A DNA stretch of 64,000 nt. Origin: Ilex aquifolium (lineage: Eukaryota; Streptophyta; Magnoliopsida; Aquifoliales; Aquifoliaceae). The notes under the pieces are model-generated. The model saw nothing but the letters and a program-made list of their open reading frames with translations. It had not been told where the DNA came from and did not search any database. Every line of letters starts with the position of its first letter. Positions within the stretch are counted from its first letter, which is position 1. The translations under genes and the position numbers were made by a program. Location: contig OX637405.1 in NCBI GenBank assembly GCA_951799425.1, forward strand, positions 25,337,635-25,401,634. Direction: 5' to 3'. This document shows, piece by piece, positions 7,725 through 42,895 of this stretch.

Positions 7725-10371
<2,647 letters not shown>

Positions 10372-10401
10372 GGTGAATGAAAGAAGTGATTCGACGAAGA
10401 C

Positions 10402-10628
10402 TAGGGTTTGCGAGGACGAAGAAGACGAAGAAGAGACTGCCGCCGAATAAAACCCTAACCTTGTAGAGCATGTTTATATATTTGAAGTGGTTGGAGATTG
10501 GGCCGGATGGATTTGTCCAAGACGGTCACTCAGGCCCATTTGGTTGAGTGGCTTTAGACATGTTGGCATCCAGATCTGTTTGGACAATATCATTGGGCCA
10601 AAGAAGAGTCCAACAACATCCAAGCCCA
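10402..10628 (-). promoter_or_regulatory. RPS23 promoter and leader: telo-boxes and four site II elements
   Basis: Upstream of the ATG at 10371 lie AAACCCTA (minus strand, 10402-10409) and AAACCCTAA (10450-10458). TGGGCC/TGGGCT site II motifs follow at 10499-10504, 10533-10538, 10594-10599 and 10623-10628. Telo-box plus site II is the usual arrangement in plant ribosomal protein promoters, where TCP-type factors act on site II. The closely spaced set supports the 5-base first coding exon and the start chosen. Confidence 0.85.
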
Positions 10629-10639
10629 GCCTCTAATAA

Positions 10640-11913
10640 TTAGGATAATTTAGAAGCCGGTACAAAAATTTAGACTTATTTTAGCTAAATTACATTAAAA
10701 AAACTTATTTTGTTCTAAGTGCATTTTTTTGAAAAAAGACTAAAAGGGTATTTATTACTCCATTACTCTCTCTCCTCTCTCTTCATTACTCTTTCACTAT
10801 CTCTTTCCTATTTTCTCTATATCTATTTCTCTCTCTTTCTCTCTCTCTCTCTCATATTGATAAATTTTTTTTAAATATGTAAAGATTTGATTTAATTTTT
10901 TATCTCTCTCTCCCCTTATTTTTTTTTTCTCTCTCTCTCACTCCTTCTCCCCTTATTTCCTTATTCTCTCCCTTTTTCTCTCTCCTTATATCAATGTTAC
11001 ACAACACAATTATACTAATCAGTTACACCAATTAGTTATAATTACCCTATAATACACTAAACAGTTACTCATGTATTATAATAAACTAAACAGTTATACT
11101 AAACAATTATACAAAATTACAACACCAACTCAATTTGTCATTTTGTTATTTACATAAATCAAAGAGTTACATCATTTAGTATCACGACATGGTTACATCA
11201 ATTATATACACCAAATTAGGTTTATCATTACACAAAAGACTTTATCATTATACTAAATTTGATATATATGATTGGTGTAACGATGTCGCGATACTAAATA
11301 GTGCAACTATTAAGTTTATGTAAACAACTGAATGACAAATTTGGTTGATATTATAAATTTGTGTAATTGTATGGTGTAACTGTTTAGTTTATTAGAATGC
11401 ATGAATAACTGTTTGGTGTATTATAAGACAATTGTAACTGATTGGTGTAACTGATTAGTGTAATTATGTTGTTGTAATGTTGATATAAATAAAGAGAGAA
11501 AATAGGAAGAGAGCGAAATGGTTACAGAAAATAAAGGGAGAGAGATGAAAAAATAAATCAAATCTTTACATATTTGAAAATAAAATAAATTATCAATGAT
11601 AGATATAGAGAGAAAATAGGGGAGAGATAGGGAAAGTAAAGGGGAAAGAGAGAGAGAGATGGAGAGAAAATAGGGGAGAGGTAGTGAAAGAATCTAATGA
11701 AATCTTTACATATTTGATTAGATATATAACTGTCAATTAAGAATGCATAAATTAAGGAAGGGTGTTTAGGTAAAAAAGATTTTAATTCATTTGAATTTTG
11801 TACCTAAACACAAAAATTTTTATAAAAATTGTACTTAATGGAATAAACAACTTATCCATACACTTTTGCCTAAATAAGTCTAAAAAATTGTACCTACACC
11901 TAAAAAACCCTAA
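10640..11913. mobile_element. Fold-back element: 1.27 kb long inverted repeat
   Basis: The two halves are inverted copies of each other. The left end GGTACAAAAATTTAGACTTA pairs with the complement of the right end, GGTACAATTTTTTAGACTTA. Internal matches include AAATATGTAAAGATTTGAT in both arms, and paired CT-rich (left) and GA-rich (right) tracts. The arms meet near 11235. The ends TTAGG...CCTAA are flanked by TAA on both sides, which could be a 3-bp target duplication. No coding capacity is seen. The superfamily is uncertain. Confidence 0.75.
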
Positions 11914-16100: not shown

Positions 16101-17054
16101 TATATATAAACATACAAATTAAAGGGTAGAATGCTTGAAAAGCCTTCCCTCCATATTTTTTTTTAAATTTTTTAGAGTTTTAATTTTTTTAATTATCATA
16201 TTAAGACTTCCTCCAGTCACATTTTATCATGTGTCTTTTGTAATAACCCCTCAATTCTCCCACTAAGTGTCTACTATTTTCTAAAATTTAATTACATAAA
16301 ATTATTTTTTCTATTTAATAATTTAATATTATTTTACTATCTATCTTTTTAAATAATAAGAAAACAGTGGGATATAGGGAGAATGAGAGAGAAGGGATAA
16401 GTTATGGGCTTATGAATATTCAAGATAATATGATAAGAGGATGGTATCAATCCAGCGAGTCATACATAGATAGATACACGTGAACAAAAAGGTCAATCAA
16501 AATTTGTCCCTTTTGGGGACATGCTTTAAACTAGTTTAAATCATGGTGATTAATTGCTGAATTTGAAAGAATAGTCGGCGTAAGTCTGATCACCTTGTAA
16601 CAAAAAAAAAAAAAATAAAGAAAAGAAAAGAAAAGAAAAGAAAAGAAAAGGAAAAAGTCACTCAACGAAAATGTTCACACCACGTCATCATTGGATTTTA
16701 TTTGGTTGGTGATAGCACGTTTGTTTAATTTTAATTAATTGATTATACGATACCACATCACTGTTGGATTTAGTGAGGTATGTTAGTCCTATTTGTTGGA
16801 TTTTAATTGGTTGGAGATGCAACGTTTGTTGTATTTTAATTATATAAGTGATATATCACGTCATTGTTGGATTAAGTGATGCATATTAGCCCCTTTTGTC
16901 AGATTTTAATTGGTTAGTTACACTATTTTGATGTACTAGTTATTCTCTGTACCTGAAGATACGGAGTAATAAAAAAAAATAGTCAACATATTTGTATTCA
17001 CACCCAAAATCAAATCACAAATATAGAAGAGAGATAAAAAAATTTAAGCACCGA
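16101..17054. repeat. AT-rich spacer with an AAAAG microsatellite and about 100-base related units
   Basis: Between about 16683 and 16925 variants of 'GTTGGATTTTAATTGGTTGG' plus 'CACGTCAT' recur roughly every 90-110 bases. The same unit reappears near 18290-18400 and 18640-18695, on the other side of the G-rich tract. An (AAAAG)n run lies at about 16617-16652. No gene is seen. Confidence 0.55.
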
Positions 17055-18035
17055 TTGTAGTGGAGGTGAGCGGTGGTAGTGGTGGTGGGCGACAGTGGTG
17101 ATGATGGGAGACGGCGATGGTTGTGGTGGGTAAGACGACGATCATGGTGGTGGTAGCAGTCGTGGGTGGCAATAATGATGGTGGTGGTGAGTGTGGGTGG
17201 TGGTGGACGACGGTGATGGTGGTTGGCAGTGGTGGTGGTGGGACGACGACGGTGGTTGTGGGCAGTGATGATGGTGGTGATGGGCGACGATGGGTGCTTT
17301 TAGGCGATAGTGTGATGGGTGGTGGCGAATGACGGCGGTGGTAAGCGTGGTGGAGGTAGGTGACAGTGGGTGACTGCAGTAGTGGACGATGACAGGTGGT
17401 AGTGGTAGGTGTGGTGGGGTAGGTGACAGTGACTGGTGGCGATGGATAGTGGTGGGTGCTGACAGTGGACGACGGTGGTAGTGAGATGATAGTGGTAATG
17501 ATAATAAATATAAGAATAAGATGACGATGGTGGTGGGTGGTGGCCATAGACGACGATGGTAGCAATCGGTGGTGACCATAGACGACGATGATAGCAATCG
17601 GTGGTGACCATAGACGACGATGGTAGCAATCGGTGGTGGTGGCGGCTGTGGGGGCAATGAGGGTGGGGCAGTGGCGGTGGTGGGGGTGGTAGGGGTGATG
17701 GTAGGACAGTAGCGGTAGTGGTAAAGTGCGACAACGATGGTGATGATGGTAGGGTGCGGCACTGGTGATGGTGGTGGGGCGGTGGAAGTGATGGTGGTGG
17801 TGGTGGGACGGTGATGATGGTAGGGGGGGGTGGTAGTGGTGGGCTGTGGTGGTGGGGCAATGTAAATGGTGATGGTGGTGGCAACGACGGTGGTGGTGGT
17901 GGTGGGGTGGTGGGTATAGTAGGGTGGCGATAGTGATGGTGGTGGGTATGGTAGGGTGGTGATAGTGTTGGGGGTGGGGGTAGGGGTGGGGGTGGTGGAG
18001 CAGTGGGGGTGGTGGTGTTAGAGGTGTTGGTGGAG
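17055..18035. repeat. GGT/GAT-rich strand-asymmetric tract (about 1 kb)
   Basis: Nearly a kilobase is built of imperfect GGTGGT, GATGGT and GGTAGT units with almost no C on the plus strand and few long A runs. A roughly 33-base unit with 'GGTGACCATAGACGACGATG' is tandemly repeated near 17565-17630. Long open frames exist on both strands only because the composition lacks stops. They would encode Pro/Thr/His-rich or Val/Gly-rich sequence with no domain, so I do not call them genes. Confidence 0.85.
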
Positions 18036-18383
18036 CGGTTCCAAATACTATTTTTTTTTAAAAAGTATTTATGAGAAATAATTCTTATAAGTACTTTTAA
18101 AAATTCATTTCAAACACACCATTAAGGGTCTATTTTTCATATTAAATTTGGGGTGTTAATATTAACTGTTAGATTAACTTTAAAGTAAAATTTAAAACAA
18201 TCCCAATCGCGAATAGCAAAAGTCATTTTGTTTATCTTTTGAGATTTGAATTGTATTGTACTTTATTATATAGATTTAATTGGTTGATGACACCTCGTAA
18301 TCATCAGATTAAGTAAGGATACTAGTTTTGTTGTTAAATTGTAATTAATTAGTGATACCATGTTATCATTGCACTGAGTGAGG

Positions 18384-18640: not shown

Positions 18641-19399
18641 AGGTGAGGTAATGCTAATCATATTTGTTGGATTTTAATTGGACGATGATACTACACTAGT
18701 GGCAAAAAAATAGGTATATTTCTTTCTATAAATACCGGTGAGATCCAATGTTTCCAATGCAACTAACTCATCATCGAATATTTCTTTCATATAAAGACAA
18801 TGGGTGGCTCCTTCTCCTCCTCCTCTTCTAAAGTGTCTATAATCTTCGTAGCACTCTTTTTCATGCACTTACACAAAGTGTACCCCCTTGGCCCTCCATG
18901 GACAGTGATGCCAGTGAATGCATGAAGACACTCCATGTTGGGCATAGAGAAAAAGGACTTGGCTCTAATATCACCGACTCACTGAGACCCTGTGTAAATG
19001 TGTGATGGAGGAGTGCAAGTTCCAAGCGCATCTGAAGAGTAAAACGTAATCAAATGAATTGATGCCAAACTGCTTTTTGTTAGAACCTAAAGACAATACT
19101 AATCTCGAATATTGTAGTTATTATTTTTCTCGAATAAAAAAAGGTGGTGTTCGTTTTATTGCTAGAACTTTTTTTTTTATTTTGAATTAGTCTCATGGTA
19201 CTAGTAGGTAATGTAAGAATGGTTGATTCAAATACTTTCTTTCAGATGTGTCTAGTACATTGGGTTTGGTAGTTGACCGCTATGCTAATCTAGCTAGGTT
19301 CGTTTCTGAGAAGAGTAATGGGGGCGGTTAGGAACCTCATAATCCCACCAGTGAGAGCTTATCGGGATGGTCTCTGGACACTTTCCTTTGCCCCACTCT
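18641..19399. other. Spacer with no supported gene
   Basis: Short open stretches occur on both strands (for example minus 18674-18868) but none shows a domain or a good splice model. The T-rich and A-rich runs near 19130-19180 are unremarkable. Confidence 0.4.
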
Positions 19400-19579
19400 T
19401 TTTTAATGAGCAAAAAAAAAAAAAAATTTTTGACCTACCTCAAAGTTTTACATTACAAAGCTCAGTTTCAAGATTTTTTGAATCCTCATTTATTCCTTTT
19501 TCCTTCCGGTGAATTCTCATCATTTCATGAAGATGTTCTTAACCCTTGCAACTATTATTACCTACATCAACATGGAGTT

Positions 19580-22500
19580 TGATGGGTGAAGCCCAAGGGC
19601 CCAACTCATGTTATAAGCTCAGTCTGAATTAATAGCTCAACTCTAAGAGATCCAGTAAGTCTAGCCTAAGGTGGTTCACGCCTGGTCAAGCTCATCTGGT
19701 TCGAGGAGCTACATCAGCAAGGGAGCATGCAGGTCATCCAAGAGCCTCATCCACGCCGCCCTAGAAAGAGTCAATCCCACATCATCCTTTGACCGAATCC
19801 TATAGAGAGCACCGTAACTGCCTCATCAGCTGAAAAGAGGTGCTAGCTCCACCATATCAGCCACTTAGTTAATAATAACTCGTCCAAATTTGTTATGAGA
19901 CGACTATAAATTGTAAGCCCTGCCAACACTTGGGGGGCAGATCACACTCAGTCGAGCACATCTGTCCTATCTCTCTTAGTTTATAACTCCTTACTCTCCC
20001 TACACTCCTTAAAGTAATAAAATACCCCGACAACCCTAGCCATTCAAAGTGGACGTAGGTCACGTTGACCGAACCACTATAAATCCTTGTCTTACTTGTG
20101 TCTCTATATCTCTCTACTTTACTACTGTATTTATTACTGCTCAATTGGACAGATGGTGTACAAACGCAATTTGTGCATCATCATTTATTACTGCTCATCT
20201 GACAGGTGGTGTACAAACCTAATTTGTGCATCATCAGTTTGACACCGTCTGTGGGAAACGACAAAGTTCTCACCCAAGCACTCTTCTTCCTATACCTATG
20301 GCGATCACCACTAGATTCATGAATCAGCCTGAAGAAAATCCACCAGGAGAGGATGTTGTTGCCCCTCCACCAACCAATCATGTTCTGAACACACAACAGA
20401 TGCTGAAAACAATGCAGCAGCTCGTGACTCAGAATCAGGAAATCCTGCAACTGATGCTTGCTGGACAACAAGGAGGAGCACAACCCGGAAGGCATCAAGC
20501 CAGAGGAGCTCTACGCCCTGGGCATCAAGGAGCTCCCCACTTGGGTGCCCCCTTGGGTGACGCATACAGGGGAGCCCCGCGTTAGAACTATGAGGGAGCT
20601 CCATCTCATATTCTAGCTCCCTCTTCTCATGGTGGAGACCCTCATTTCCAAGAGGATGAGGGCAATAATCAAAGTGTGGAGCATGTGAGCCATTTTCATG
20701 ACAATTTCAAAGGAGCCCAAATCACTGGGACGAAAAAATCAAAGAAATATAGGATCAATTGGGCGACGTCTTCAATACCATGAAGACACAAGGACCAGAA
20801 AATGTGGAGTACCTCGTAAGGCGAACTGACACACCTTTTGTGCCAGATGTGGCAAACTCCCCTCTTCTCCAAAAGTTCAAACTGCCATCCGTCGACCTTT
20901 GACGGAACAAAAGACCCACTTGATCACCTTGAAACTTATAGGTCCTTAATGCAGCTGCATAATATTCCTAACTAAATCATGTGTATGACATTCTCGACTA
21001 CCTTGAAAGGGTCTGCCCGACAGTGGTTCACCAAGCTCATCCCAGCCTCCATTGGCTCATTTGCTAAACTCAACCGATTCTTTGTGACACATTTCATTGG
21101 TGGACGCCGCCACCAGAAGCCTGCCATCTACCTGCTCAGTATAAAACAAGACCGGGATGAAAGCCTGAGGAGTTATCTCACTCGTTTTAATGAGGAGGTC
21201 CTCCGGATTGAGGAGCCCGATGATAAGGTCACCATGACCGCTTTCTTGGGAGGTCTACGCTCATCTAGCTTTCTCTTCTCAATGATAAAACACCCACCAA
21301 AGAGTATGCCAGAATTGTGGGCAAAAGCTCAGAAATACATAAACGCCAAGGATGTTACCAAAGCTAAGCGAGGTGAGTTTTCGCCATCATCATCACCACC
21401 TACGCCCGACTCCAAAAAAAAAGAAGCCACAAAGGCACAGGCATTAACAGATTTTGTGGCTGATCTCACACCTCTTGAGGAGAGAGATTATCAAGAATAC
21501 TCAGCGCTAGGCGCCCAGCACCTCCAGCCGCCCAGCACTGCGCCCAAGCCCAGGCGCCGAGCACCTAGGCGCCCAGCTCTCAGCGCCCTCCTCATCTCAA
21601 TCTATTGGAATGAGCCTTCGACTTGGTACCCTTCGATGGGCTAACCCTCAAATTCTCTACTCTGCTCTCAAGCAGGCAGCCTATTTCCAATTTAGCGGCT
21701 CTCTCATAGGTCGTCAAAAGCTTTGCCTTTGCATTGTTCTCAAGCATGCATCCTGTATCTCCAGCTTAGCGGCTCTCTCATGGGTAGCCAAAAGCTCGGT
21801 CTCAAAAGGTGTAGCTCTTTCATGAGCAATCCTAAGACTCTGTCTTTGCTCTCAGGCAAGTAGTCTGGCTTTCTCTCTAGGTAATCATGTTAGATATTTT
21901 GATGTTGGAATAACATTATTTTTACCATCTCTAGGCAATCTTTTGAAACTCAGGCCGTCTGCAACCCGCGGGACTATATTAGATTGAATGTCAACAATTG
22001 GGCTTTATCTTTTTGCGTCCATCCAACAGCCCCCGTGCCATAGGCGCCCATCCAGCAGAGCCATGGGCGCCCGTCTAGCAGCGCCATGGGCACCCGTCCA
22101 ACAACGCCCAATGTCATAGGCGCCCCTCCTGCGTGCCTAGCCCGGGCAGCAGCCCCTCCTGCGCGCGCATCAGCCTTTCCTGCGCGTGCAGCAGCCCTTC
22201 TTGTGCACGCATTAGTCCCTCCTGCGCACGGCCAGCTCGCCCACCTCCAAACGGGGCCCATAATATATCAAATCGAAGCTCTCGGCGAGCCTTACAAAAC
22301 TCACTTCCTTTGGTTGTGATAAACGCTGTTAAAATCCCAAAAAAGGACTAGAAGCATCTGTTTTGGACTCCCGAAGTTTTTCCAGTTGTGCGTTCAACCG
22401 AAATTCAAACTCAACTGAATGCCCTCCTCTCCAAGTTCCATTGAACGCAGGGCATTGGGAGACAAATGATGGGTCAAGCCTAAGGGCCCAACTCATGTTA

Positions 22501-23126
22501 TAAGCTCAGTTTGAATTAATAGCCCGACTCCAAGAGATCCAGCAAGTCAAGCCCAAAGTGGTTCACGCCCGGTCAAACTCATCAGGTTCGAGGAGCTACA
22601 TCAGTAAGAGAGCATGCAGGGTCATCCAAGAGCCTCATCCACGCCACCTTGGAAAGAGTCAACCCTCACGTCATCCTTTGATTGAATCCTATGGAGAGCA
22701 CCGTAACTGTCTCATCAGTTGAGAAGAGGGAGCTAGTTCCACCAGATCAGCCACTTAGTTAATAATAACTCGCCCAAATTTGTTATGAGGCGACTATAAA
22801 TTGTAAGCTCCGCCAACACTTGGGGGGCAGATCACACTCAGTCGAGCACATCTCTCCTATCTCTCTTAGCTTGTAACTCCTTACTCTCCCAACACTCCTT
22901 AAAGTAATAAAATACCCCGACGACCCTAGCCATTGAAAGTGGACGTAGGTCACGTTGACCGAGCCACTATAAATCATTGTCTTATTTGTGTCTCTATATC
23001 TCTCTACTTTACTACTGTATTTATTACTGCTCAATCTGACAGGCGGTGTACAAACCCAATTTGTGCATCGTCATTTATTACTGCTCATCTGACAGATGGT
23101 GTACAAACCCAATTTGTACATTATCA
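19580..23126 (+). mobile_element. Gag-only LTR element (non-autonomous, Ty3/gypsy-related), 3.5 kb
   Basis: LTRs are 19580-20236 and 22467-23126, both starting TGATGGGT and ending ...ATCA, flanked by the 5-bp duplication GAGTT (19575-19579 and 23127-23131). Just inside the left LTR a gypsy-type primer-binding region (TTTGACACCGTCTGTGGGAA) is seen. A purine-rich stretch precedes the right LTR. The inner part has a gag-like region (about 20298-21560) with the typical retrotransposon gag features GSARQWFTKL and RSYLTRFNEEV. No protease, reverse transcriptase or integrase is present. From about 21560 to 22440 the sequence is unrelated GCGC-rich filler. The LTRs differ at several percent of sites by eye, suggesting a few million years. 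It is a broken fossil with several breaks in gag, inserted in the ICR copy. Confidence 0.9.
20130..20236. repeat. 54-base tandem duplication at the LTR end
   Basis: TTTATTACTGCTCA...GTACAAACNNAATTTGTGCATCATCA occurs twice back to back (20130-20183 and 20184-20236). The right LTR has the same doubling at about 23020-23126. The duplication was therefore present in the parental copy before this insertion. Confidence 0.85.
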
Positions 23127-23657
23127 GAGTTTGGTAACAAGTTCCTCCAATGAATACACTCGAGTCTTTGATTGTTCCAATTCCAAAGCCAGGGATTTGT
23201 ATGCTTCCATAGCTTTAAGGCCTTCTAACCAGATTATCTCCTCAGTTATGTTTGCCATTTTCAACTGCATTTGAGCTTTACTAACTTCTTCTAAGGCCTG
23301 AGCTTCAGATTCTTCTCTATCACTTACCAAGGTTTTCAGTTTCTCAACTAGTGCAAGTGTTTCTTTAAGTTCCAGTCTTACGTTATGAATCTTAGCATGT
23401 GTTGATTCGGCATGCCTAGCCTGAGAGCAACATCATATTCGGCCACCCTGGCTATTTGGTTCTTGAGCTTCTGGATCTCATTCATGGAAAAAGATAGAAT
23501 CCATGGAGTGCTGCTTCTAGACAGCCTCAATTTTAGACTGCCATGCTTCATCTCGATGCCGTGAGATCTTGCAGAGCTCTTGGACCCGAGCTTCCTCAAG
23601 AATCAGAAAACTTCAGCAACTGCTTTTGAGACTCTTCAAGTTTTATTGACATTGAAG

Positions 23658-24193
23658 CAGGGGTGACTTAAGGTAATTTGAGGCTTAAAGCGACATTATT
23701 AAATAATTTTTTTTTTAAAATTTTTAATATTGATTTTTTTAAAAAAATTAATTAATTTTTAATTTATTATGTGAGAGAGAGACAGAAGAAGTACGTGCTA
23801 GTGTTGTTTAGAAAAATATTTTAACTTTTATTTTTATTTTTTTTTTATCATAGAGAGTTTAATTTCAACTTTTTTATATATATATATTTTTTACTTATTT
23901 TTACATAGAGAGAGTGTGAGTAGGGGTAAATATGAGTTGACTTTTGAGTATTTTTTATTTTTTTAACTTATGATTTTTAGATTTAAAATGTTATGGATTG
24001 AATCATGGATTCAAATTATTACAATAAAAATTTTAATTGTATTAAGTTTTTTAGGACCTTTTCTTTTTAGGGTTTAAAATTTAATGGATTTAAATTTTTT
24101 CCAAGTTAGTAATATACCTAAAATTATGGGGTCTTCTAAAAATTTAAGGCCTAAAGCCCAAGTTTTTTTTTTAATACTGTAGGGCTGCCCCTG
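23658..24193. mobile_element. hAT-type MITE (CAGGGG ends), 536 bp, inside the ICR copy
   Basis: Starts CAGGGGTGACTTAAG and ends GGGCTGCCCCTG. Flanks CATTGAAG and CATGGAAG form an 8-bp target duplication with one change. A second copy with the same interior (GCCTAAAGC, TTAAGACTTAAA-like ends) lies at 47447-47948. The core is AT-rich and non-coding. Confidence 0.85.
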
Positions 24194-24639
24194 CATGGAA
24201 GCAAACTGCTTTTTTGACTCTTCGGTTTCCTACTGGGCCTGCCTCTTCTGAGCTTTTGACACATCCCGAGTAGTTTTGAAAAAAAAGTCCTAACTAAGGG
24301 TTGATTCGAAAATAATTCCCAAACCCAGGTTCTTTTTAAAAACGTCAAGTGGACTGACGCCTTTAAGCTAAAAACGTCAATCCGTTTGACGTTTTTAAGG
24401 TTGAAGATCCGATTACAGGAACGTTAAAAACGTCGACATTTTAATTAAAAACGTCAGTTGTACTGATGTTTTTAACTCAAGCGTTGTAGAACCCATTTTT
24501 CCCTCTTCTCTCTTCTTTCCTTTCCCTTATTTTCTCTTCTTCCCCCCCATTTGAGCCCTAGCTCACTCAGGCGACATCGCGGCACCCCCATAGCCATTCT
24601 CAATCAGCAGCTAACCGCAGAACAACCACCATCGCAGAA

Positions 24640-24765
24640 CCACCACCATCCTGCTTCACCATGCAGCACCACCCAGCGCCACCCACGACCACCCAGTGCC
24701 ACCCACGACTACCCACGACCACCCACGACCACCCACGACCACCCACGACCACCGACCTCCAGCAA
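24640..24765. repeat. CCCACGACCA minisatellite within the MULE left arm
   Basis: About ten imperfect copies of the 10-mer CCCACGACCA, most regular from 24705 to 24755. A frame open across it on both strands reflects the lack of stops in the repeat and is not a gene. Confidence 0.8.
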
Positions 24766-24859
24766 GCACCAGGGGCCACAAACGACAACCAGCACAAAAG
24801 GCCCAAATCTGCTCCACTGTTGGCTGTTGCTCTTCCACCAGGTTAGTATACTCCATTAG

Positions 24860-26949
24860 CTTTAATTAAATTTTAATTTAATTTAATTCTTTTGTTCTAA
24901 TTATAGATTTGTACGAATGATGATGACATGGTAGTTCCCAGAAAGCTTGTATCATTTTGATAACATGGTATTGAAAATTCCATTTAAATGAACTGATTTT
25001 TTGTCACTACATCTATATAAGGTAGCCCTGATTCTGATATTTCAACATAGCTGCTTAAATGGTGGTTCAATGATTTCCAAGCCAATTCGGTTTTATATAT
25101 AAACATCCTGCAATAGTGTGACTATTTCAGTTCTTTATTGTTAATATATTTTTCATATCTATACTTAAATGCTATTTTTGTTAAGATATCCACAATTCAT
25201 TGTCTTGCCATGAGGTGATCCTAAATACGTTTTCTCACTGCTCAAATCCCTTTCAAAAACTAATTAGCTCCAGTGTTTATTAGATCCGACATGCCACTGT
25301 TTCATGAAAATGATTTGGTTGAGTTTTCAGATGAGTATGACTTGTGTTGGATTGAGGTTGATCACCATCAAATTGACACTAAATTGAGTTTTTATCATAG
25401 GTTTATATGGTTGACCTTTTACTCTAAACCCCCTGGTCGACTAATTTCAGTACCTGTATATATATTTTTATGATCGAACTTCACAGTTTACTAGCCCTTT
25501 TATTTAGTCTATATAGTTTGTGTTATTTGAAGTGGACAAATTTATCTTTGTTTAGTCAGTACATCTATATAGTCAAGAAACAGTAAAAAATATATCTTTC
25601 TTCAATAGACCTAAAGGGACGACTGAGGTAAGAAAGTTGTAGGTACTGGCTATGTGGCAGGGTAGGGGACTTTAAGTTGCGATCTTATAGCTGTGAGTGA
25701 ATGAAGATCATATTATCATTTACATGATAATGGACATAGTTGTACATAGTACTACCCTTGTATCCTAGAACTCTACTGTATCCTAGAACCCTTGTATCCT
25801 GCAGCTTTCTAACAAAATCTAGTAATGGACATGTTTTCGAATCAAACCAGTATCAATTTGATTCTATTAATCATCTTTGATTGCTCCATTCTCTGTGGTG
25901 CATAGATTGTAATATTTATATATCTCTATCCATATTGTGAAGATATATTAAAATGTTGACACATAACTCTAAATAAAAAAAAGTGTACAAGTTTTTCATG
26001 ATAAAATCAAGGGGAAACAACACAAACATAGGTTTCCTAAAGCATTCCTACATAATAAAGCATTGATTATTGATTCTTCCCCATAAATTGATGCTCCTCA
26101 TGATAATAGCTTTAATTAAGGCATGACTACTCTTTCCAAAAGGTTAATTGTGATTGGGCCTCAACTATAAACATTATTATTTTTTTGGGAGAATTACACT
26201 CAAACCCTTTGAGGTTTGTCACTTAATCAGTCAGACCTCCTTAAGGTTTGGACACACCTAACTCAATCCCTGCCGTCAATGTCCGTTAGTAAATTACACT
26301 CAAATCCCTTAAAGTTTGTAGGTTTTCTACATTTTACTTGAAAATCAAAAATGCATTCTTTTAATGCTTCGTACATTTTTTTATTCTTTTTATTCAAAGC
26401 CTTGATATTTGTTTCTGGATTTGAAGTAAGTCCTTTGTAATTCAACATCAGTACGAAGCTAAAATTCTAAATTAAAAGAATAAAAAAATCCAGAAAATTC
26501 TATATTCCATGTATGTCTTTCTCAATCTTAATCGAACTTTAGTAGTTATTTATCTTAGGCATCAAACACCACATTTATCTCAAAATAAGCATGTTGATTT
26601 TGAATCAATCAATTTACTCCAGTATTGTCATCCTACATTGTTTTTCTTCTTGATAACATGTTTCACCTCTTAATTCAATACATGATAACATGTTAGGAGA
26701 TACCCTTTTGTGGGGATTATTTATTCAAACTTCCATATAAAAGTTGTATCTTCATCTTTCTTAGTATCATACAAGTACACTTCATCCTTGTAGGTTGTTT
26801 AATTGATAAATTCTTCTAGGTCGCATGCGGTAGATTTACATGGGACTTTGATTAATCGTTGATCTATTATTCTTCAAGTATTAATCGTTTCTATCTATTC
26901 CCAGGTTCTTCTGAATTCAGAACTTATTCCACAACTGAAACTATATGAA
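24860..26949. other. Non-coding 5' part of the MULE
   Basis: AT-rich sequence between the terminal repeat and the transposase start. A stretch at 26187-26330 (GGGAGAATTACACTCAAACC..., then a second AAATTACACTCAAATCCC) has a repeated half and resembles an internal MITE fragment. A 66-codon open frame at 25273 has no recognisable domain. It could include the transposase leader or an intron. Confidence 0.4.
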
Positions 26950-28659
26950 ATGGCGGGAAAACAAGTTACCATTTTGCTATATTGGGGTGGACAAATGACT
27001 TATGGATCGTAGGGTTTATCATACAGTTGTCCACCCAAAGATGGTATTGTTATCAATAGTGGTACACAACTGCCGGAGTTATTGAGTAAAATTTACACTG
27101 TAATGGGGTTGGACAGGGCGCATAACAAGTTGAAGTTGACTTGTAGATATCCTTTTACAGTTGGAACAGGACCAGGACCAAACATAAATACATATGTCGG
27201 TCTGGAAATTGTCAACGATGAACTAGTGACTTCTATGGTTAATGTGGTACTTAACAATCTCAGCATTGCTAGTGTTGCTTTGTACGTGGAGACGGAGGAC
27301 ATCAATCCTGGCATAGGCAGTAGTCAGAACGGAAGGGTGCATAACAACAACTGCTATGTCTTACACTGAGTTGCTTAGGCGAGAAATGGGTCCATTGGCA
27401 TATCCAACTTCTGGTGTGACGGGTGAATGTTCAACTCCCGTGGGGATGCAGGTAATGGATGAGTTTGGGCAGTACTTTTACACCCAACAAAGAACTGGAA
27501 CAGAGACATACGGTGGGAACTCAGCCAACAATTCATTGAGTTAGAATTTTGAAATGGGTGAGGCGAGAATTGAGTTGGGTGAACAAGATGATGTCCATCA
27601 ACCAATAATACAACAAAGCCCAATTCGGGAATATGAAGAAATGTGTGCCAATGATCGTACAGATGTCTCCGATGACGACGACGAAGAAGAAGAGTTTGAG
27701 GAAGTAATGATTGATGAGGCAGCTGACGAAGATGAGAATCGAGAAGACTTTGAGGCTGCTTAGGTGGTGGAGATGCATAAGCCTTACTCTACCTCATTCA
27801 CAACCACTGAATTTGGTCAGTATACTGAAGCAGATAGCTTTGATCGCCAGTTGAACAGAATTTGTGGGATCTGGTGAAGATGGAGTTGGCGAAGGGCATG
27901 ATTTTTAAGGATAAAGTTTCATTGATTAGAGCTGTTAAATGATATTCAATCAAGCTGAATCAGAATTTTATCGGGGTCGAGATGAACACAACTGTGTGGG
28001 CTGTCCAATGCATCATGTACATTCAACCTAACTGCACGTGGAGACTGCGTGCTTGTTTTAGGAAAAAATTAAAAATGTTTCAGATCACGCAATATGATGG
28101 ACTCCATACCTGCTTCTACTCTAGGATGAGTCGTGACCATCGGCAGTTAGACTCTGACTTCATTTATCATTATATACTAGGACTCGTGGGTGATACACCA
28201 CAAACCAAAATGTCGACAATTCAGAAGAATATAAATGAGAAGTTCAAGTTTGATATTTCCTATAAGAAATCATGGATTGCGAGGAACAAAGCAATTGCTA
28301 AGATTTTCGGTGATTAAGACTCGTCATATGACATGTTGCTAAAGTTTTTGGGTGCTATCAAGAAGTATAACCCTGGCTCAATTGTGAAGTGGCGGTATGC
28401 CTCTGAAACTCCTGAATATAATGTTTTTTTACGAGTATTTTGGGCATTCAAGGTAAGCATTCAAGAGTTTAAATATTGTCGACCTGTTGTCAGTATTAAT
28501 GTGACATTTTTGGTTGGAAAGTACAAGGGAAAACTGTTAGTTGCGACTGCTTTTGATTCTAATAAACAGTTGTTTCCCATTACTTTTGCTATTGTCGAAG
28601 AGGAGAATTCGTCAAGTTGGGCTTTTTTTTCCTATATTACCTTCAGGCAGATGGGGTAA
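26950..28659 (+). pseudogene. MuDR-type MULE transposase, decayed
   Basis: Starts MAGKQVTILLYWGGQMTYG, the usual N-terminus of plant MURA-like proteins, followed by an acidic linker (DDDEEEEFEEVMIDE at about 27700). The zinc-binding region has HTCFYSRMSRDHRQLDS near 28105-28160. The catalytic core starts KYNPGSIVKW and SINVTFLVGKYKGKLLVATA (about 28350-28560). In active relatives the latter motif is SIDGTFLKGKYKG, so the first catalytic Asp is replaced by Asn here. There are in-frame stops (near 27008, 27542, 27761, 28314) and the core ends at about 28659, before the remaining catalytic residues. The enzyme would bind the terminal repeats and cut and paste the element. It is dead in this copy. 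Confidence 0.85.
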
Positions 28660-28674
28660 CTAAGCTATCGGTGT

Positions 28675-29403
28675 TTGTCAGCTCTTTCTGAGCTTCGAAG
28701 ACTTGTGCAGCCACCGGCAGACATTCAACAACCAATTGTTGTAGCCCCAGTGTATGCACGACAACGTGGTGTACGCATACCTCGACCGCCATCCGCACGT
28801 GCACATGAGCAGACTCCCCCACCGGCTGTGGATATTGCTGCGACATCATCAGAGGCAGGCCCATCGACAACATATGTTCCCCAGACTGCTGCAGAGGCAG
28901 GCCCATATACCCCATATGTCCCAGCTTTTGATTTTGACATTCCTACACTAGTCGTTCACAATGAGTCTTCATCAGCGCTTGATCGTCCTACAGTTACATC
29001 ATGTGGGCCATCGCTGACCTCATGTGGGCCATTGCTGACCTCAGCAGGTGTTGATGCATCGGCGACTCCATCCACACCTACACCAGAGCCAGTAGTTACA
29101 ACAGATACATCACTTCCAATGGCAGACATGGTTATTCCACAGGGTGTTCCACCGATGCCCACACGACCTACTTCTTCTATTCCATACGAGGATAGTTCCG
29201 ATGATGCTGATGTTCCAGTTGAGGGAGTTACACAGGAGCCATCACTGTCACGCAGAGGTCGAGGCAGAGGTTGGCATGCAGTCGGTCGTCATACACACCA
29301 TACACATGATCCTGTAGCTGGTGGAGTGACACAAGATATACCGGCTCCGCATGATGGTCAGCGGCCCAAGCGACAGAGGAGACCACCACCTTGTGGGACA
29401 TAG
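28675..29403 (+). pseudogene. C-terminal tail of a plant-mobile-domain (MAIN-like) type protein, truncated
   Basis: An open frame of about 240 codons, Pro/Ser/Thr-rich with a direct repeat (SEAGPSTTYVPQT and AEAGPYTPYVPAF). It ends in a basic tail: RRGRGRGWHAVGRHTHHTHD, then GQRPKRQRRPPPCG. Tails of this kind are familiar to me from plant-mobile-domain proteins carried by, or derived from, transposons. The globular domain that should precede it is missing; the frame follows the broken transposase core directly. An internal deletion joining the two genes would explain this, but that is inference. The frame has no good ATG at its start (TTG at 28675). Confidence 0.5.
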
Positions 29404-29697
29404 TATTCTTATAACATGTATTGTAAACAAAATGTGATTATTGTTGTTGTATATAAAATATATTTGTGTTCATAGTTTAATATTATGTTAATTCATTACT
29501 GCCCTTTAGATGATTTATCCAATACTATAAAAAAATGTTTATTGAATAACATAACATAAATTATTGAAATTTGATGGACAATACAAACTGGAGTAGTCCA
29601 CCATATTACATAGAAACATAATACATAAACATATTGCAAACACAAGTACGACAACCAAAGTGTAAATGTTACAACACAGAAAATTCATGACACTTCT

Positions 29698-30192
29698 TCA
29701 TGTGTTTTCATCTTCGTTAGACAGGTAATGATCAGAAATACATCCATCTTCACCACTCAATTGGTAGCTTAAAATTGCTTCTTGCATCCTCCCTTCTGCA
29801 GCACGGTCGCTTGCAATACGGCACAGATTGTACCGATTGCAACGGATTGCTATTCGATTGTTCTCAACTCGAATGCAAAACAATGCTCGCTCTAATTCTT
29901 GAGGAGTGGTAATAGACATAGTAATGACAACTTGTCGAGGTCTTCTTATGTTGCAAGAACGTAAATCTAAACTTAGATTTTCTCTTTCCGTCAAGCGATA
30001 TTGCCATTCCGCCATCATTGTGTTTGTAGCTGTTAGTGAATAGCGCAAGCAAGGATTTGTTGGGTAAAATAAATCATCCTCTAAAGCCCAATGATAACCC
30101 AGAGTTTCAAACAGGGTTCTAGGACTAAAATTCATGGTTAGAGATGAATTCTGTATATTCAACATTTCACATGAGTTCAAATTTATATGCAA
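29698..30192 (-). CDS. Hypothetical protein inside the MULE, opposite strand (164 aa)
   Basis: An unbroken frame from MHINLNSCEMLN to LSNEDENT with balanced composition: 8 Cys, a basic middle (NIRRPRQVVITMS) and an acidic end. An inner ATG (MNFSPRTLFETLGYHW) is as likely a start. The frame opposes the transposase, as accessory genes of Mutator elements (MURB-like) often do, but I see no similarity to known MURB and claim none. It is intact while every neighbour frame is broken, which is notable. It may be a mobile-element accessory protein or chance. Confidence 0.45.
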   Translation of the reverse strand: MHINLNSCEMLNIQNSSLTMNFSPRTLFETLGYHWALEDDLFYPTNPCLRYSLTATNTMMAEWQYRLTERENLSLDLRSCNIRRPRQVVITMSITTPQELERALFCIRVENNRIAIRCNRYNLCRIASDRAAEGRMQEAILSYQLSGEDGCISDHYLSNEDENT

Positions 30193-30221
30193 TTTATTAA
30201 TGTGAGTATGTCAGTCTACAG

Positions 30222-30707
30222 CCTAAATGAATGACATTACAAGATTGTGTAGTCACGGTCATTGACATTTCACACAATGTGTTGTCACAATGACGTACAA
30301 TGTCACAATTGTCAATCATTGTATCTATTCCTTATTCACCAGCACACGTTATTGAAGACCATACATTGCACTTAAATGCAGTGGTATGTTGGCACATTCC
30401 ACATCCTGTGAGAGCACAGTAGTTAACAGCCACAAACCCTAATTGAATAACATTACAAGATTGTGTAGTCACGGTCATTGACTACACAATAATATCTACT
30501 AACACATACTGAGATTTAAGCAGTGTTTAGTCACAGTAACACAGTGTGTTGTCACAACGACGTACAATGCTACAATTGTCAGTCATTGTACCTATTCCTT
30601 ATTCACCAACACATGTTATTGAAGACCATACATTGCACTTAAATACAGTGGTGTGTTGTCACATTCCACATCTTGTAAGAACACAGTAGTTAACAGGCAT
30701 AAAGGTG
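30222..30707. repeat. About 240-base imperfect tandem duplication in the MULE
   Basis: The block from GAATGACATTACAAGATTGT to CACAGTAGTTAACAG occurs at about 30222-30432 and again at 30448-30697. The second copy has an extra ~45 bases. GTGTGTTGTCA-type motifs recur inside it and continue at 31330-31480. Non-coding. Confidence 0.75.
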
Positions 30708-30809
30708 ACTACACATTACTGCACTGCTGACAAATATATTTATTTTAGACAATGAAAACCACTATAAAAACATAAGATAAGGTGATTCTTATAACATGTA
30801 TTGCACATT

Positions 30810-31251
30810 ATGTCTACTTCAAGAGCACGAGCAATTGATACCAACCGTAGGCATGAACCAGTATGGTTATTAGAAGAGCGAGATGATGATTACAAGAGTG
30901 AGATTTTCTGATCCAAAGGAGTATTATGCTGGACTCCGTCGAGAGTGGGCTTTTCGTACTAATGAATCACAGTCGTTATGCACATATTTGAAAAAACTAG
31001 GTATACTGGTGCCACATAGAATTTCACTTACCATGTAGCGAAGGAATACAATTAACTATGAAGCAGCAGTTAAACGTGTACGAAAGGAGAATAATAAGAT
31101 GATGTTGCGTAAGTGTCGATATTATATGCTCCAAATAACATCTGACATGGTGACAACTGCATTTGGCAGGGAGCTAACAGCTACTAAGCGATCTAATGTA
31201 TTGACTAATGAACAATACCTATCAGATGAGTATATGTTTGATGAAAATTAA
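30810..31251 (+). pseudogene. Unrecognised MULE-borne reading frame, broken (about 147 codons)
   Basis: Starts MSTSRARAIDTNRRHEPVWL. It continues after a frameshift as FSDPKEYYAGLRREWAFRT and, past one stop, as YEAAVKRVRKENNKMMLRKC, ending in DEYMFDEN then TAA. Codon-like composition across two simple breaks suggests a former protein of about 147 residues, basic in the middle and acidic at the end. The family is not recognised. It lies between the transposase and the right terminal repeat. Confidence 0.5.
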
Positions 31252-31692
31252 AAATTTTAATTACTGTCCACCTTATTAAGCATATAACATTTATGTTTAT
31301 GTCCTATTTACTTTAATCAATGTTGTCGCTTTGAGTTTATTCAGTGTGTTGTCATATCTCAACTTTTTCATTGTCACATCCTGTAATTGTCAATGTATGC
31401 AGTTTGTTGTCACTTTAATCAATTTATGCAGTGTGTAGTCAATCAATATGCAATGCAGTTTGTTGTCATATCCAAACTTTTTCATTGTCATTTTGCATCA
31501 CTGGCAAATCAGTTCCAAACTATGCAGATTCATGTCCTTCCACTGTAATTTTAAATTGCCAAACCGAGAATATATATACTACCTTTCACAGTTGTGTAAA
31601 TGTACCACCACCAAACAAAATGTATAGGAGCACATCACATGCAAGATGATTTAAATATGTATACGTTTTATCATCATCCATTCAGTTTAAAG

Positions 31693-31965
31693 ATGGTTGG
31701 TATTGGTAACTGGTATTGATTTCGAGAAGACCGGGAGAAAATAATCCTGAAGAACTGCGGAGACTTGGCCGAAAAATTGTTCCGATTTGACTCCATACCA
31801 CTTCATGTGCGCCAAGAACCATTACCCATGGGGGCTATCTTTAATTGTTTAAATCAATTATGGTTAGGTATCATTGTTTGGGAGAATAACATCAGTAGGA
31901 CACTTGAGGCATAGTATGGTGAGAAAGTATTGGGTGTAACCGTTACAGTTTGTATGGGGCCTTAA
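31693..31965 (+). pseudogene. Unrecognised MULE-borne reading frame, broken (90 codons)
   Basis: MVGIGNWY, stop, FREDREKIILKNCGDLAEKL, LFRFDSIPLHVRQEPLPMG, FNCLNQLWLGIIVWENNI, stop, then TVTVCMGP and TAA. Two in-frame stops only. The composition is protein-like, but I do not recognise the family. It may belong to the same former gene as 30810-31251. Confidence 0.35.
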
Positions 31966-32677
31966 ATTTAATTATATGTATACGTTTTCGATTATTAAAG
32001 TTTGATATGCTAAAAAATATAAGTATTTTTAAATTATCAAAATTTATTTATTGAATGTAATTAAAATTTTAAAATATTTATTTATTGAATGTAATTGAAA
32101 TTTATGTATTTTTAAAATATCAAAATTTATTTATTAATTAAATTTTTTATTAAATAAACATTTAACATTTTACTCAAAAATAAGGCAGCAAAACCTATCA
32201 CTAAAATTTTTTTTAGCTATTATAAAATGCTTTAATTTAAATAAAACAATTAAAATTTTGGTTCTAATTTAAAACCCGAAAGAAAATTTAGGGGACAGTT
32301 ATGATATTTACCCAAACAAATATTAATTTATTTAGGCATTAGATATTTGGTGAAGGTCTTTGTCGGTGGAGTCATCTGCTTAGAAGTTAAAAGGTAGTCA
32401 ATGGGCTGAATATGCCATGGAGAAAGGCGTCAGTTGGCCTGACGTCTCTTCTAAAAACGTCAGTCCAACTGATGTTTTTCATGGGCTCAGTGGACACAAC
32501 ATTTGGCTTAAAGATGTCAAACGGACTGACGTTTTTAACTTAAAGGCGTCAGTCCATTTGACGTCTTTAAGCTAAAAACGTCAGTCCGTTTGACGTTTTT
32601 AAAAGAACCTGGGTTTGGGAATTGTTGGGACTTTTTATTCAAAACTACTCGGGATGGGTCAAAAGCTCGCCTCTTCC

Positions 32678-33496
32678 ATTCCGATGAACTTAGTTGGGCT
32701 TTCACGCTTTTTAGCTCTTCTTGAAGCTGAACAAGCTGAGATTCTAGTTCAAACACTCTACTTGGGCACTTTTTCTGAGGCTCAAGACAAGGTATCACAA
32801 TGTCAGATGGGCAGACAACAGCTTACTAAAACTTTTGACAAAGGTAATGGAGAGTGTCAAGCATAAAACAACAACTAACTAAACAGACTGGCCGTAATAT
32901 AAGGAAAAAACATGAATTAATGAAGTGGAATTGCAACATGGTTAAAAGACACAAGAAGATAATGGGCATCGTTAAGCAAAAGGGAAATAACTAAATAGTC
33001 TGACCACAATATAAACAATAAAAAATAAAAAACAAAGGAAAGAAATGGGAGGACAACATGATTGAAAAAATAATTGGTTGCGGATTACAAGTGCGTCAAA
33101 CCAACAGGTTGGGTTAGCTAATTGGGGTGGAAAACATAAAATTGCTGAACAAGGAGCAATGAGCCTATTAGAAGTGCCAACATCATTGTGTTCTGTCATA
33201 GATTTCTCAAATAAGCTCTTGCAGTAACAGTTAAATGATATGTCAGATGGTGACTAAATATGATAGTCAACATATTCTAGTCTTTCAAAACTTTCACAAT
33301 TGGACAATTAATGTGATTAAACTGTCTAAAAAGACATTTTATCCTGGACAAGCAACAAGTTTGATATTGCCAACTACTCAACTGGTCAAAAGGATCGTGC
33401 AGATAAATAGTCACCAAAGAATTATAGTTGGATCTTCTTGCAAATTTGAGAATTAATTTTTTATAACTTTTCATTTATCTTCATTATTATTAATTT
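32678..33496. other. Flank of the ICR copy with no further gene
   Basis: Beyond the ICR remnant (to 32798) I see only AT-rich sequence with two similar short blocks, 'AACTAACTAAACAGACTGGCCGTAATATAAGG' in pieces at about 32870-32905 and 'AACTAAATAGTCTGACCAC' at about 32990, so a ~115-base stretch is duplicated in tandem. The N-terminal exon of the ICR gene is not found. Confidence 0.45.
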
Positions 33497-39402: not shown

Positions 39403-42400
39403 TGATGATGCACAAAATAGACTTATGCAAGATCAACAGTCGAGTGAATGATGTAGGGAATTAATGAGACAATTAATAAAGCAATCAATGACAAAAACGT
39501 AAATATCGGGTCAACACACAAATATATAGTGGTTCGGTCTGGCTGACCTACTCCACTTCGGGAAACAACAACGGTGGCCGGAGAACCTTTATTAATGAAG
39601 TAAGGTGAACGGGAGAGTGGGAGAGAGTAATGATTAGCTCTGGGAGGGATACAATAGCTAGAAGAGAGAAAAACTATGTGAGGGGTGTGTAGAGAGGTGT
39701 AGAATTAGATGTCTTCTCATGTAGAGATCGTTTACAATTTATAGGCACAAAGCCTTGGTTAAGGCGGTGACGTGAGGGTAAATGTACTAGATTTTCGGGG
39801 AGGATGACTACAAAAGGTAAGTACGATTAAAGATTGCCTTGGTCTTCGAGAGTGATTATCCCGATGATTGCTCTGCACGTGTTTTAATTTTCTTGGATTC
39901 CTTGGACCTTGGGCTGGCTCGAATTCACAAACTAGGCTTGAACTGTATTTTAGCTGATTTGAGCTTACTTGATTTATTGGGCCTGACCTAGTTGAATCTA
40001 GGCTTGTCATTTGTCCCCCCATGCCCCAAGCCCTTGAGGTGGCACTGCCTTGCCTCCAACTATTGGTAATATTTCTTTAGGTGCTCTACGTTCCATGGAT
40101 GGGCTAGAATTTTTCCCTCAGAATTCTGAATTTTGTAGGTGCCCGGTATTACAACTTTCATGACCATGTAGTGTCCTTCCTAGTTAGGTCCTAGTTCTCC
40201 TTCCCGAGAGTCTTTGGTAGACAGAATGACCTTTTTGAGGACTAGGTCTCCAGACAAGAAGGAGCGAGGCTTTACTCTCGAGTTGTAGTACTTGATCATG
40301 CGAAACTTGTACTTTGCATTCCTGAGCATGACTATCTCCCTCTCCTCCTCTACCAAGTCGAGGTTGATGCAGATGACTTCTTCATTACTGGTAGGTTCAT
40401 GGTGCTAGACCCTAAGGGAGTGTACTCCAATCTTAACGGGTATGACCGCCTCTATCCTGTAGGCTAGGGAAAAATGGGTCTCACCCATGGGGCTTCTTGG
40501 TGTCGTCTGGTAAGCCCACAACATTCCCGGGATTTCGTCTACCTATCGTCCTTTCACACTCTCCAACCTGGTTTTCAAATTGCAGAGGATGGTCCTGACG
40601 GTGACCTCCGCCTGTCCGTTCGCTTGTGGATGGGTAGGGCTGGTGTGGGGCTGCAGAAGCTGTTAAGGAGTTTATTGTCAAACTATTTGGCGTTATCGTT
40701 TACAATTGCATGAGGTATTCCGAAACGAAAAACTATGCTCCTCTAGATGAAGTCTGTTATCTTGGGCAAGGCCAAGGCCTCGGCTTCTGTCCATTTAGTA
40801 AAGTAGTCAATCACTATCATTACGAACTTGTACTGGCCCTGACTCATGGGTAGGGGACCTAGGATGTCGATCCCCCACATGGAGAAGGGCCACGGGCTTT
40901 GAATGATGATGAGCTCTTCAGGTGGCTGTCTGGGTACAGTTGCGAAACGTTGACACTTATCACACTTCCTGATGAACTCTCGGATGTCTTTGATCAGGCT
41001 AGGCCAATAATAGCCTTACCTTACTGCTTTGTGGGCCAGTGCAAGCCCTCCCGAGTGATTTTCACATATCCCCTCGTAGATTTCCCTCATAGAATAATTG
41101 GTTTTCTCGGGGGTAAGACAACGGAGAAGTGGCAGTGAGTAACTCTTTTTGTAGAGTATGTCGCGTAAGATGACATACCTGGACGCTCTCATCCTCAACT
41201 TTTTGGCTTCCACTGGGTTGTCCGGGAGAGTGTCTTCCTCTAGATAGGCTCGAATGGGTGTCATCCGGTTGGTGTCAGAGGATGTACAATTAACATCGTC
41301 TTCCTCTGCCTTGAAAGTGCTTGGCTCGAACTAGTGGCCTGGACCACTGCTAGGTACTCTTGCATCTTTTCCTCCTTTGTTCCAAAGTCTCCCTTTATCT
41401 GGTTGACTATTAGCTATGAGTCACTGTAGGCTTTCAGGCAGAGGGCCTCCATCTTCGATTCGAGCTTCGAGCCTGATATGAAGACCTCATATTCAGCTTG
41501 GTTGTTCGATGTAGCAAAGTGGAGGGAGACAACATACTTGAGTGGAGTGCCATAGGGGCTGATCAGCACTAGTCCTGCGCTGCCGCCCTCGCTGGTGGAG
41601 GACCCATCCATGTATAGTCTCCAACATGGTATAGTAGATGGTAGCGAGGGAGCGGAGGGCGTGGAGGGCTCTGGTGGAGTATGCACAAGGGAGTCGGGCG
41701 CCTCTAGTCTCAGAGTGTGGTCTCCCGAGGCCTGTGGAGTTGTCTCCGAGACGCTGGGCCCTCTCGAAAATAGTGTCTGAGCTTGCCTCATGGTGGGTGA
41801 AGGCCTTATGCACTGAGCAAGTGAGTGCAGGGGAGTGTGATACTTCCTCCCGGGACTCCTGTGGCGGTGTAGACTCGTCCACGAAGTCCGCAACTGCTTG
41901 CGCTTTGATGGCCGCCCTCGGTTGGTACTACACATCGAACTCACTTAACTTGACGACCCACTTGAGTAGTCGGCCGGACACATCAGACTTTCCCAAAATT
42001 CTCTTGAGTGGTTGATCTGTGACAACCACGATGGTATGACTTTGAAAGTAATGACGTAGACGCCTAGCGGCGATGACAAGTGTGAGAGCCAACTTTTCAA
42101 GCTCCGAGTATCTTACCTCTGCCCCTCGGTATGCCCTACTTACATAGTATACAGGCTTCTGGATGCCTCCATCCTCCCTGACAAGGACGGAGCTCATGGT
42201 AAAGGATGAAGATGAGAGGTAGAGGTATAAATTCTCTCCCAGTACAACATGGAAGAGCAAGGGTGGTGTGATGAGGTAGGCTTTTAGCTTCTAGAAGGCC
42301 TCCTCTGCATCTGGTCCCCACTGGAAAGACTTGCAGAGGATTTTAAAGAAAGGCAGACACTTGTCTGCTGACTTTGAGATAAATTTGTTGAGGGTTGCTA

Positions 42401-42895
42401 TCTTCCCGTTAAGGCGCTGAACCTCCTTCACTAAGGCTGGGGACTTCATCTCTAAGATATCTCTGATCTTGTCTAGGTTGGCTTCAATGCCCTTTTTGTT
42501 GACCATGAAGCCTAAGAATTTTCCTGAACTAACGCCAAATGCGCACTTTTTAGGATTCAGCTTCATCCTGTAGGCTCTCAGTACATCAAAGACCTCCTGG
42601 TGGTGTGTCACATGGTCTGCCGCGACCATACTCTTCACCAACATATTGTCTATGTAGACCTCCATGGTCTTCCCGATCTGAGTCTCTAACATTTTGTTCA
42701 TGAGGCACTGATATGTGGCTCCGGCGTTCTTGAGTCCAAATGGCATCACCCTGTAGCAGTAGGTGCCCTTCGGGGTGATGAATGAAGTTTTCTTCTAGTC
42801 TGGAGGGAACATGCTGATCTGGTTGTACCTGAAGTAGGCATCCAAAAAACTCAGGAGCTCGTGTCCCACGGTGGCGTCAATGAGGAGATCGATGC
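39403..42895 (-). mobile_element. Truncated Ty3/gypsy element (Tat-like), 3' half only
   Basis: Minus-strand orientation. An LTR of 607 bases (40009 down to 39403) starts TGACAAGCC and ends CATCATCA, preceded by a polypurine GCATGGGGGGACAAA. Upstream in element sense are integrase-like sequence (about 41260-40400), a second RNase H-like domain (41800-41414, YMDGSSTSEGGSAGLVL), RNase H (42260-41928, VVVTDQPLKRILGKSD) and the C-terminal part of reverse transcriptase (42780-42300, MPFGLKNAGATYQ, VYIDNMLVKS). The extra RNase H suggests the Tat lineage. The 5' LTR, gag, protease and the first part of RT are absent; it stops where unit B begins. A broken fossil with several breaks. Confidence 0.85.

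Follow-up and report, generated by a model that had tools for sequence, protein, structure and literature searches.

The window, a stretch of 64,000 nucleotides on contig C15 of Ilex aquifolium, carries on its minus strand a broken copy of an ICR/RIP (interactor of constitutive active ROPs) gene whose pieces run from 32,932 to 19,430, collinear with one gene, and are separated by an LTR retrotransposon, a non-autonomous hAT-type element and a Mutator-like element (MULE) (Table 1). The first-pass annotation had proposed one ICR/RIP coding copy split by three mobile elements, each gap corresponding to one element with its own target site duplication (TSD), and this anatomy was confirmed, the element borders and TSDs being fixed by exact string matching, with chance agreement at the three preset borders of ∼1e-3, 4e-4, and 1e-4. 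The three elements are also, as had been said, not nested relative to one another. The limits proposed for the gene (19400 to 32798) are refined: homology ends at 19430 on one side and reaches ∼32932, in the upstream intron, on the other.

Table 1. Features of the broken ICR/RIP copy, its inserts and the neighbouring RPS23 gene (window coordinates).
Feature	Position	Strand	Remarks
ICR remnant 1	32669..32932	-	Intron end, then last-exon start (EPQKKCPSRVFELESQ...SSE-WKR)
MULE TSD copy GCCTCTTCC	32669-32677		Within ICR remnant 1
MULE, 8419 bp	24250..32668	+	TIR and TSD; transposase truncated
Second MULE TSD copy GCCTCTTCT	24241..24249		Exact string match
ICR remnant 2	24202..24240	-	Host between MULE and hAT duplications
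hAT TSD copy CATGGAAG	24194..24201		Exact string match
Non-autonomous hAT-type element, 536 bp	23658..24193		CAGGGG...CCCCTG ends
hAT TSD copy CATTGAAG	23650..23657		Exact string match
ICR remnant 3	23132..23649	-	Coiled-coil core, broken by frameshifts and a stop
LTR-element TSD copy GAGTT	23127..23131		Exact string match
LTR retrotransposon, 3547 bp, gag only	19580..23126	+	LTR pair and TSD
LTR-element TSD copy GAGTT	19575..19579		Exact string match
ICR remnant 4	19430..19574	-	Homology breaks off mid exon at 19430
RPS23, three open exons	7726..8893	-	Syntenic neighbour placing the ICR remnant

When the last exon of the ICR gene on C9 was compared with the window by tblastn, protein residues 2-42, 35-56, 54-73, 74-232, and 231-275 matched positions 32783-32664, 24259-24194, 23658-23599, 23597-23127, and 19580-19443, respectively, all on the minus strand, an order and orientation that agree with the earlier claim that the remnants fit one ICR protein in sequence. 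Once the inserts were left out, the joined host sequence aligned to the C9 ICR gene as a single block (host positions 23-947) with 712 of 940 positions identical (76%), with no gap within any TSD and a 3-base (one-codon) gap immediately outside the MULE TSD. Identity to C9 was 69.6% for remnant 1 (window 32668-32932 against 9870221-9870474) and 74% for remnant 4 (against 9869506-9869653), while the ICR gene on C19 matched the joined host at 69% across 303 bases and at 70% across 79. A derivation of the pieces from different ICR paralogues, or a different order, which had been named as what would contradict a single copy, was examined and rejected, as all pieces fit C9 in this one block and in order.

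A genome search with a 97-aa ICR piece gave three matches (four candidates scored), namely the window itself, C9 (66%) and C19 (42%), and the two latter are open-frame relatives; in C9 the last exon is open. Over the QWRKAA region, the C9 protein matches barley RIPb (9t3e_B, E 5e-21); this motif is described as the ROP-binding site of barley RIPb (PMC13195091), and the C9 copy shares this C-terminal region with the ICR/RIP scaffold genes. In contrast, the window copy is broken and lacks the C-terminal half: homology ends before the QWRKAA region and the motif is absent, so that the copy represents an ICR relic rather than a working member of the family. The C-terminal half also has two more remote matches with open frames, on C10 and at C4:40.3 Mb (35-37%).

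The element closest to the 3′ break has the properties of a gag-only LTR retrotransposon: a pair of LTRs of 657 and 660 bp (19580-20236 and 22467-23126) with TG...CA ends, a 5-bp TSD and a Retrotrans_gag domain (PF03732, E 2.6e-14), while neither pol nor any other Pfam domain was found in its eight internal ORFs (70 aa or longer), all of which were searched. The best other match of the 5′ LTR is the 3′ LTR (92%, the next being 89%) among the 40 places scored out of 3437 candidates. Between the two LTRs there are 52 differences in 657 sites (41 transitions and 11 transversions), or 0.040 per lineage (K2P 0.085, SE 0.012, 656 sites). A genome-wide scan for the pattern GAGTT...GAGTT was uninformative. 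The end of the 5′ LTR (20129-20236) contains an imperfect tandem duplication of ∼54 bp that is present in the 3′ LTR too.

The 8-bp TSD, the CAGGGG-type ends and the many dispersed copies of the second element are those of non-autonomous hAT elements, from which it did not differ in any of the features tested. Its TSD copies match at 7 of 8 bp. Forty of 1738 candidate places in the genome were scored and 29 further copies fetched; 12 of these had ends that failed to align and were set aside, and among the 17 with both ends aligned the TSD was perfect in 13 and had one mismatch in four, although the 17 are not all independent, as the same TSD recurs within two pairs of copies. FastTree branch lengths for this family were inflated relative to K2P and were not used.

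The ends of the third element are identical at 43 of 47 positions in inverted orientation and its TSD copies match at 8 of 9 bp. MULE TSDs are ∼9 bp long, and a sibling on C10 is flanked on both sides by the 9-bp TSD AAGCCAACA (9/9). These features are shared with Mutator-like elements. For the transposase, the element has a partial MULE domain (PF10551, E 1e-7, profile positions 1-50 of 99, the first half only), and a match to DBD_Tnp_Mut remained below the cut-off (17.2 of 25 bits). The family gave 96 matches at the 40 places scored among 2915 candidates. The parts flanking element position ∼4400 are separated by an additional ∼3.5, 1.7, and 1.5 kb in the members on C6, C4, and C1, respectively, and the C6 and C4 relatives show a 13-bp overlap of the query at this junction. 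This overlap and the additional 1.5-3.5 kb suggest that the window element, unlike these members, was internally deleted between short repeats, in which case the missing part would be the rest of the transposase. Two ORFs within the MULE (28675-29403, 242 aa, and 29698-30192, 164 aa) have no Pfam match, and the region recurs in family members.

Over 269 codons, the joined host and C9 differ with a Ks of 0.50 and a Ka of 0.196, and the host carries four stops and nine indels relative to C9, eight of them frame-breaking. Private changes at codon positions 1, 2, and 3 numbered 33, 13, and 25 in the host and 13, 15, and 24 in C9, a marginal excess for the host at first and second positions taken together (46 vs 28, p 0.047). 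An estimate of the fraction of time that the host had evolved neutrally (0.86, bootstrap range 0.09-2.8) was discarded. Any one of the three insertions would by itself destroy the coding sequence, and a transposon could have killed the gene, with the stops and frameshifts following afterwards. The difference between the LTRs, 0.040 per lineage, has however to be set against the host-C9 Ks of 0.50 over both lineages. Furthermore, 12 disablements were counted in 829 host bases (820 aligned), whereas 3.5 would be expected since the LTR insertion from the LTR pair, with three indels read by eye from the LTR alignment; about 5% of substitutions create a stop, and this value was used in the expectation. 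Under this expectation the full count of 12 has a probability of 3e-4, or 0.01 with a doubled indel rate. When the cluster near the 3′ end is collapsed to give a total of seven, which is a judgement call, these values rise to 0.07 and 0.30, and such conservative counts are compatible with a transposon as the killer. Taking both sides together, we consider an insertional death unlikely, and the ICR gene was likely dead before the LTR element arrived.

Regarding the order of the insertions, the first-pass annotation had noted one mismatch in the hAT and MULE TSDs against a perfect LTR-element TSD and had taken this as a hint that the LTR element came last. The counts are right, but the MULE TSD is 9 bp long and its mismatch falls in the ninth base, the 8 bp quoted earlier being identical in both copies. 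The mismatches cannot rank the insertions, and a TSD-based order was rejected for want of usable signal: at the observed LTR-LTR difference of 52/657 a 5-bp TSD stays perfect with a probability of 0.66, a TSD of 8 or 9 bp should show one or more mismatches in about half of all cases, and mismatches of 0/5 (LTR) and 2/17 (hAT and MULE) do not differ (Fisher p 1.0). Nor does the host sequence alone date each insertion, as had been proposed; dating relies on the LTR pair and on other members of the element families in the genome. Compared with two siblings, which have 70 and 65 changes of their own, the MULE carries 73 private changes over 3650 sites (six three-way sites left out), giving 0.020, an upper bound that fails if the window copy was the donor of the siblings. 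The hAT element, whose nearest kin are two neighbouring copies on C10, has 23 private changes in 518 sites (two ambiguous sites left out), or 0.044, also an upper bound, so that the age of its insertion is bounded from above only.

Change per lineage is higher in the LTR pair than in the MULE (0.040 against an upper bound of 0.020, p 2e-4), and the gap remains when CG and CHG sites are left out of pairwise counts (35/563 vs 116/4116, p 1e-4, and vs 109/3711, p 2e-4). Transversions alone do not separate the two (11/1314 vs 23/3650, p 0.44). The hAT element differs from the MULE (p 0.0015) and not from the LTR pair (p 0.69). An LTR element that came last would agree with its perfect TSD and with the transversion counts, but the TSD comparison and the per-lineage values of the LTR pair, the MULE and the hAT element speak against it, which leaves this order improbable. 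If anything, these divergences, which span hundreds to thousands of bases, would place the MULE after the LTR element. The locus shows that TSD mismatches are unfit for ranking insertions where LTR pairs and sibling copies exist.

The surroundings of the relic bear on its origin. RPS23 lies ∼10.5 kb below the ICR end; its last exon matches PF00164 (E 1.4e-16), and it is identical to the C9 copy at all 139 residues compared. Window positions 7726-10729, comprising RPS23 and its upstream region, are collinear with C9:9858025-9860052, and on C9, C19, and C15 alike RPS23 is followed by ICR, with strand and order unchanged. The RPS23 exon occurs at four places in the genome (four candidates, all scored), on C15, C9, C19, and C4, with a Ks of 0.249 for C15-C9, 0.262 for C19-C4, and 0.58-1.11 for the four cross pairs. 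Genome searches with ICR pieces, including the C19 exon, revealed no ICR trace near RPS23 at C4:10.4 Mb, although the C19-exon search matched only C19 and C9 and missed the window relic, so that an equally decayed relic on C4 could escape it. Of the other neighbours, the window gene at 2.4-6.4 kb has no second copy in the genome (one ORF searched) and the C9 gene at 9854 kb gave six matches, none on C15; the evidence for collinearity is therefore confined to ICR and to RPS23 with its upstream region. The open frames of this window gene lie on the plus strand (2423-6355), one of them serine-rich. A C/T-rich tract at 16931-18279 reads as His/Pro-rich frames, and the same repeat family lies near the C9 ICR (C9:9874.6-9881 kb).

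The alignment of the joined host to C9 includes the end of the intron that precedes the last exon, and this part taken alone scored 38 in local alignment, a modest margin over the maximum of 35 in 500 dinucleotide shuffles. As the intron end has been kept, the relic is a genomic copy and a retrocopy was rejected: that a dispersed or retroposed copy landed here and was interrupted later would fit the fragmentary state of the copy, as a search of the window for the C-terminal half and for a single upstream exon detected neither, and a poly-A run that adjoins the 3′ break, but C9 and C19 have the same arrangement of RPS23 next to ICR, and the A-run is on the plus strand whereas a retrocopy of this gene should have its terminal A-run on the minus strand, which makes this origin very improbable. 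Just ahead of this 15-base A-run, which touches the ICR break at 19430, ends a dispersed repeat of ∼150 bp (19256-19406), found at 39 other places among the 40 scored of 487 candidates with 79-83% identity; it is possibly a retroposed short element.

We consider it very likely that the window holds an ICR/RIP gene copy that is a syntenic duplicate in decay, which goes back to a duplication that was most likely of the whole genome and was hit later by three independent insertions. The duplication of RPS23 and ICR was probably a whole-genome duplication; against a single event, Ks is twice as high for ICR (0.50) as for RPS23 (0.25), although both would date from the same duplication. In the proposed course, this duplication would have copied ICR/RIP together with the adjoining RPS23; the C9 copy retained its open frame, while of the C15 copy one intron end and the first half of the last exon can still be recognized, with stops and frameshifts. 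Free of constraint, the C15 copy would then have taken three independent insertions, those of the gag-only LTR element, the non-autonomous hAT and the internally deleted MULE.

The pattern across C9, C15, C19, and C4 is ordinary loss of duplicates. It shares with fractionation after plant whole-genome duplication a syntenic neighbour that was kept, one copy that stayed open and another that decayed and was invaded by transposons, and there is no difference in kind. The case is a clean example of such loss, as an open sister copy, an older paralogue and a retained neighbour come together with three bounded insertions in one kilobase of host sequence. Both younger RPS23 pairs have, as far as searched, one open-frame ICR each. 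It is conceivable, and we propose it tentatively, that RPS23 kept four copies over two rounds of duplication while ICR was cut independently to one working copy per younger pair, as if ICR resisted duplication through dosage or scaffold balance.

Elsewhere in the window, a search against Rfam gave no match at gathering scores. A reverse transcriptase (PF00078, E 6.7e-16) is encoded on the minus strand at 41417-42749, together with an RNase H match below the cut-off, and this is probably the remnant of a separate LTR element.
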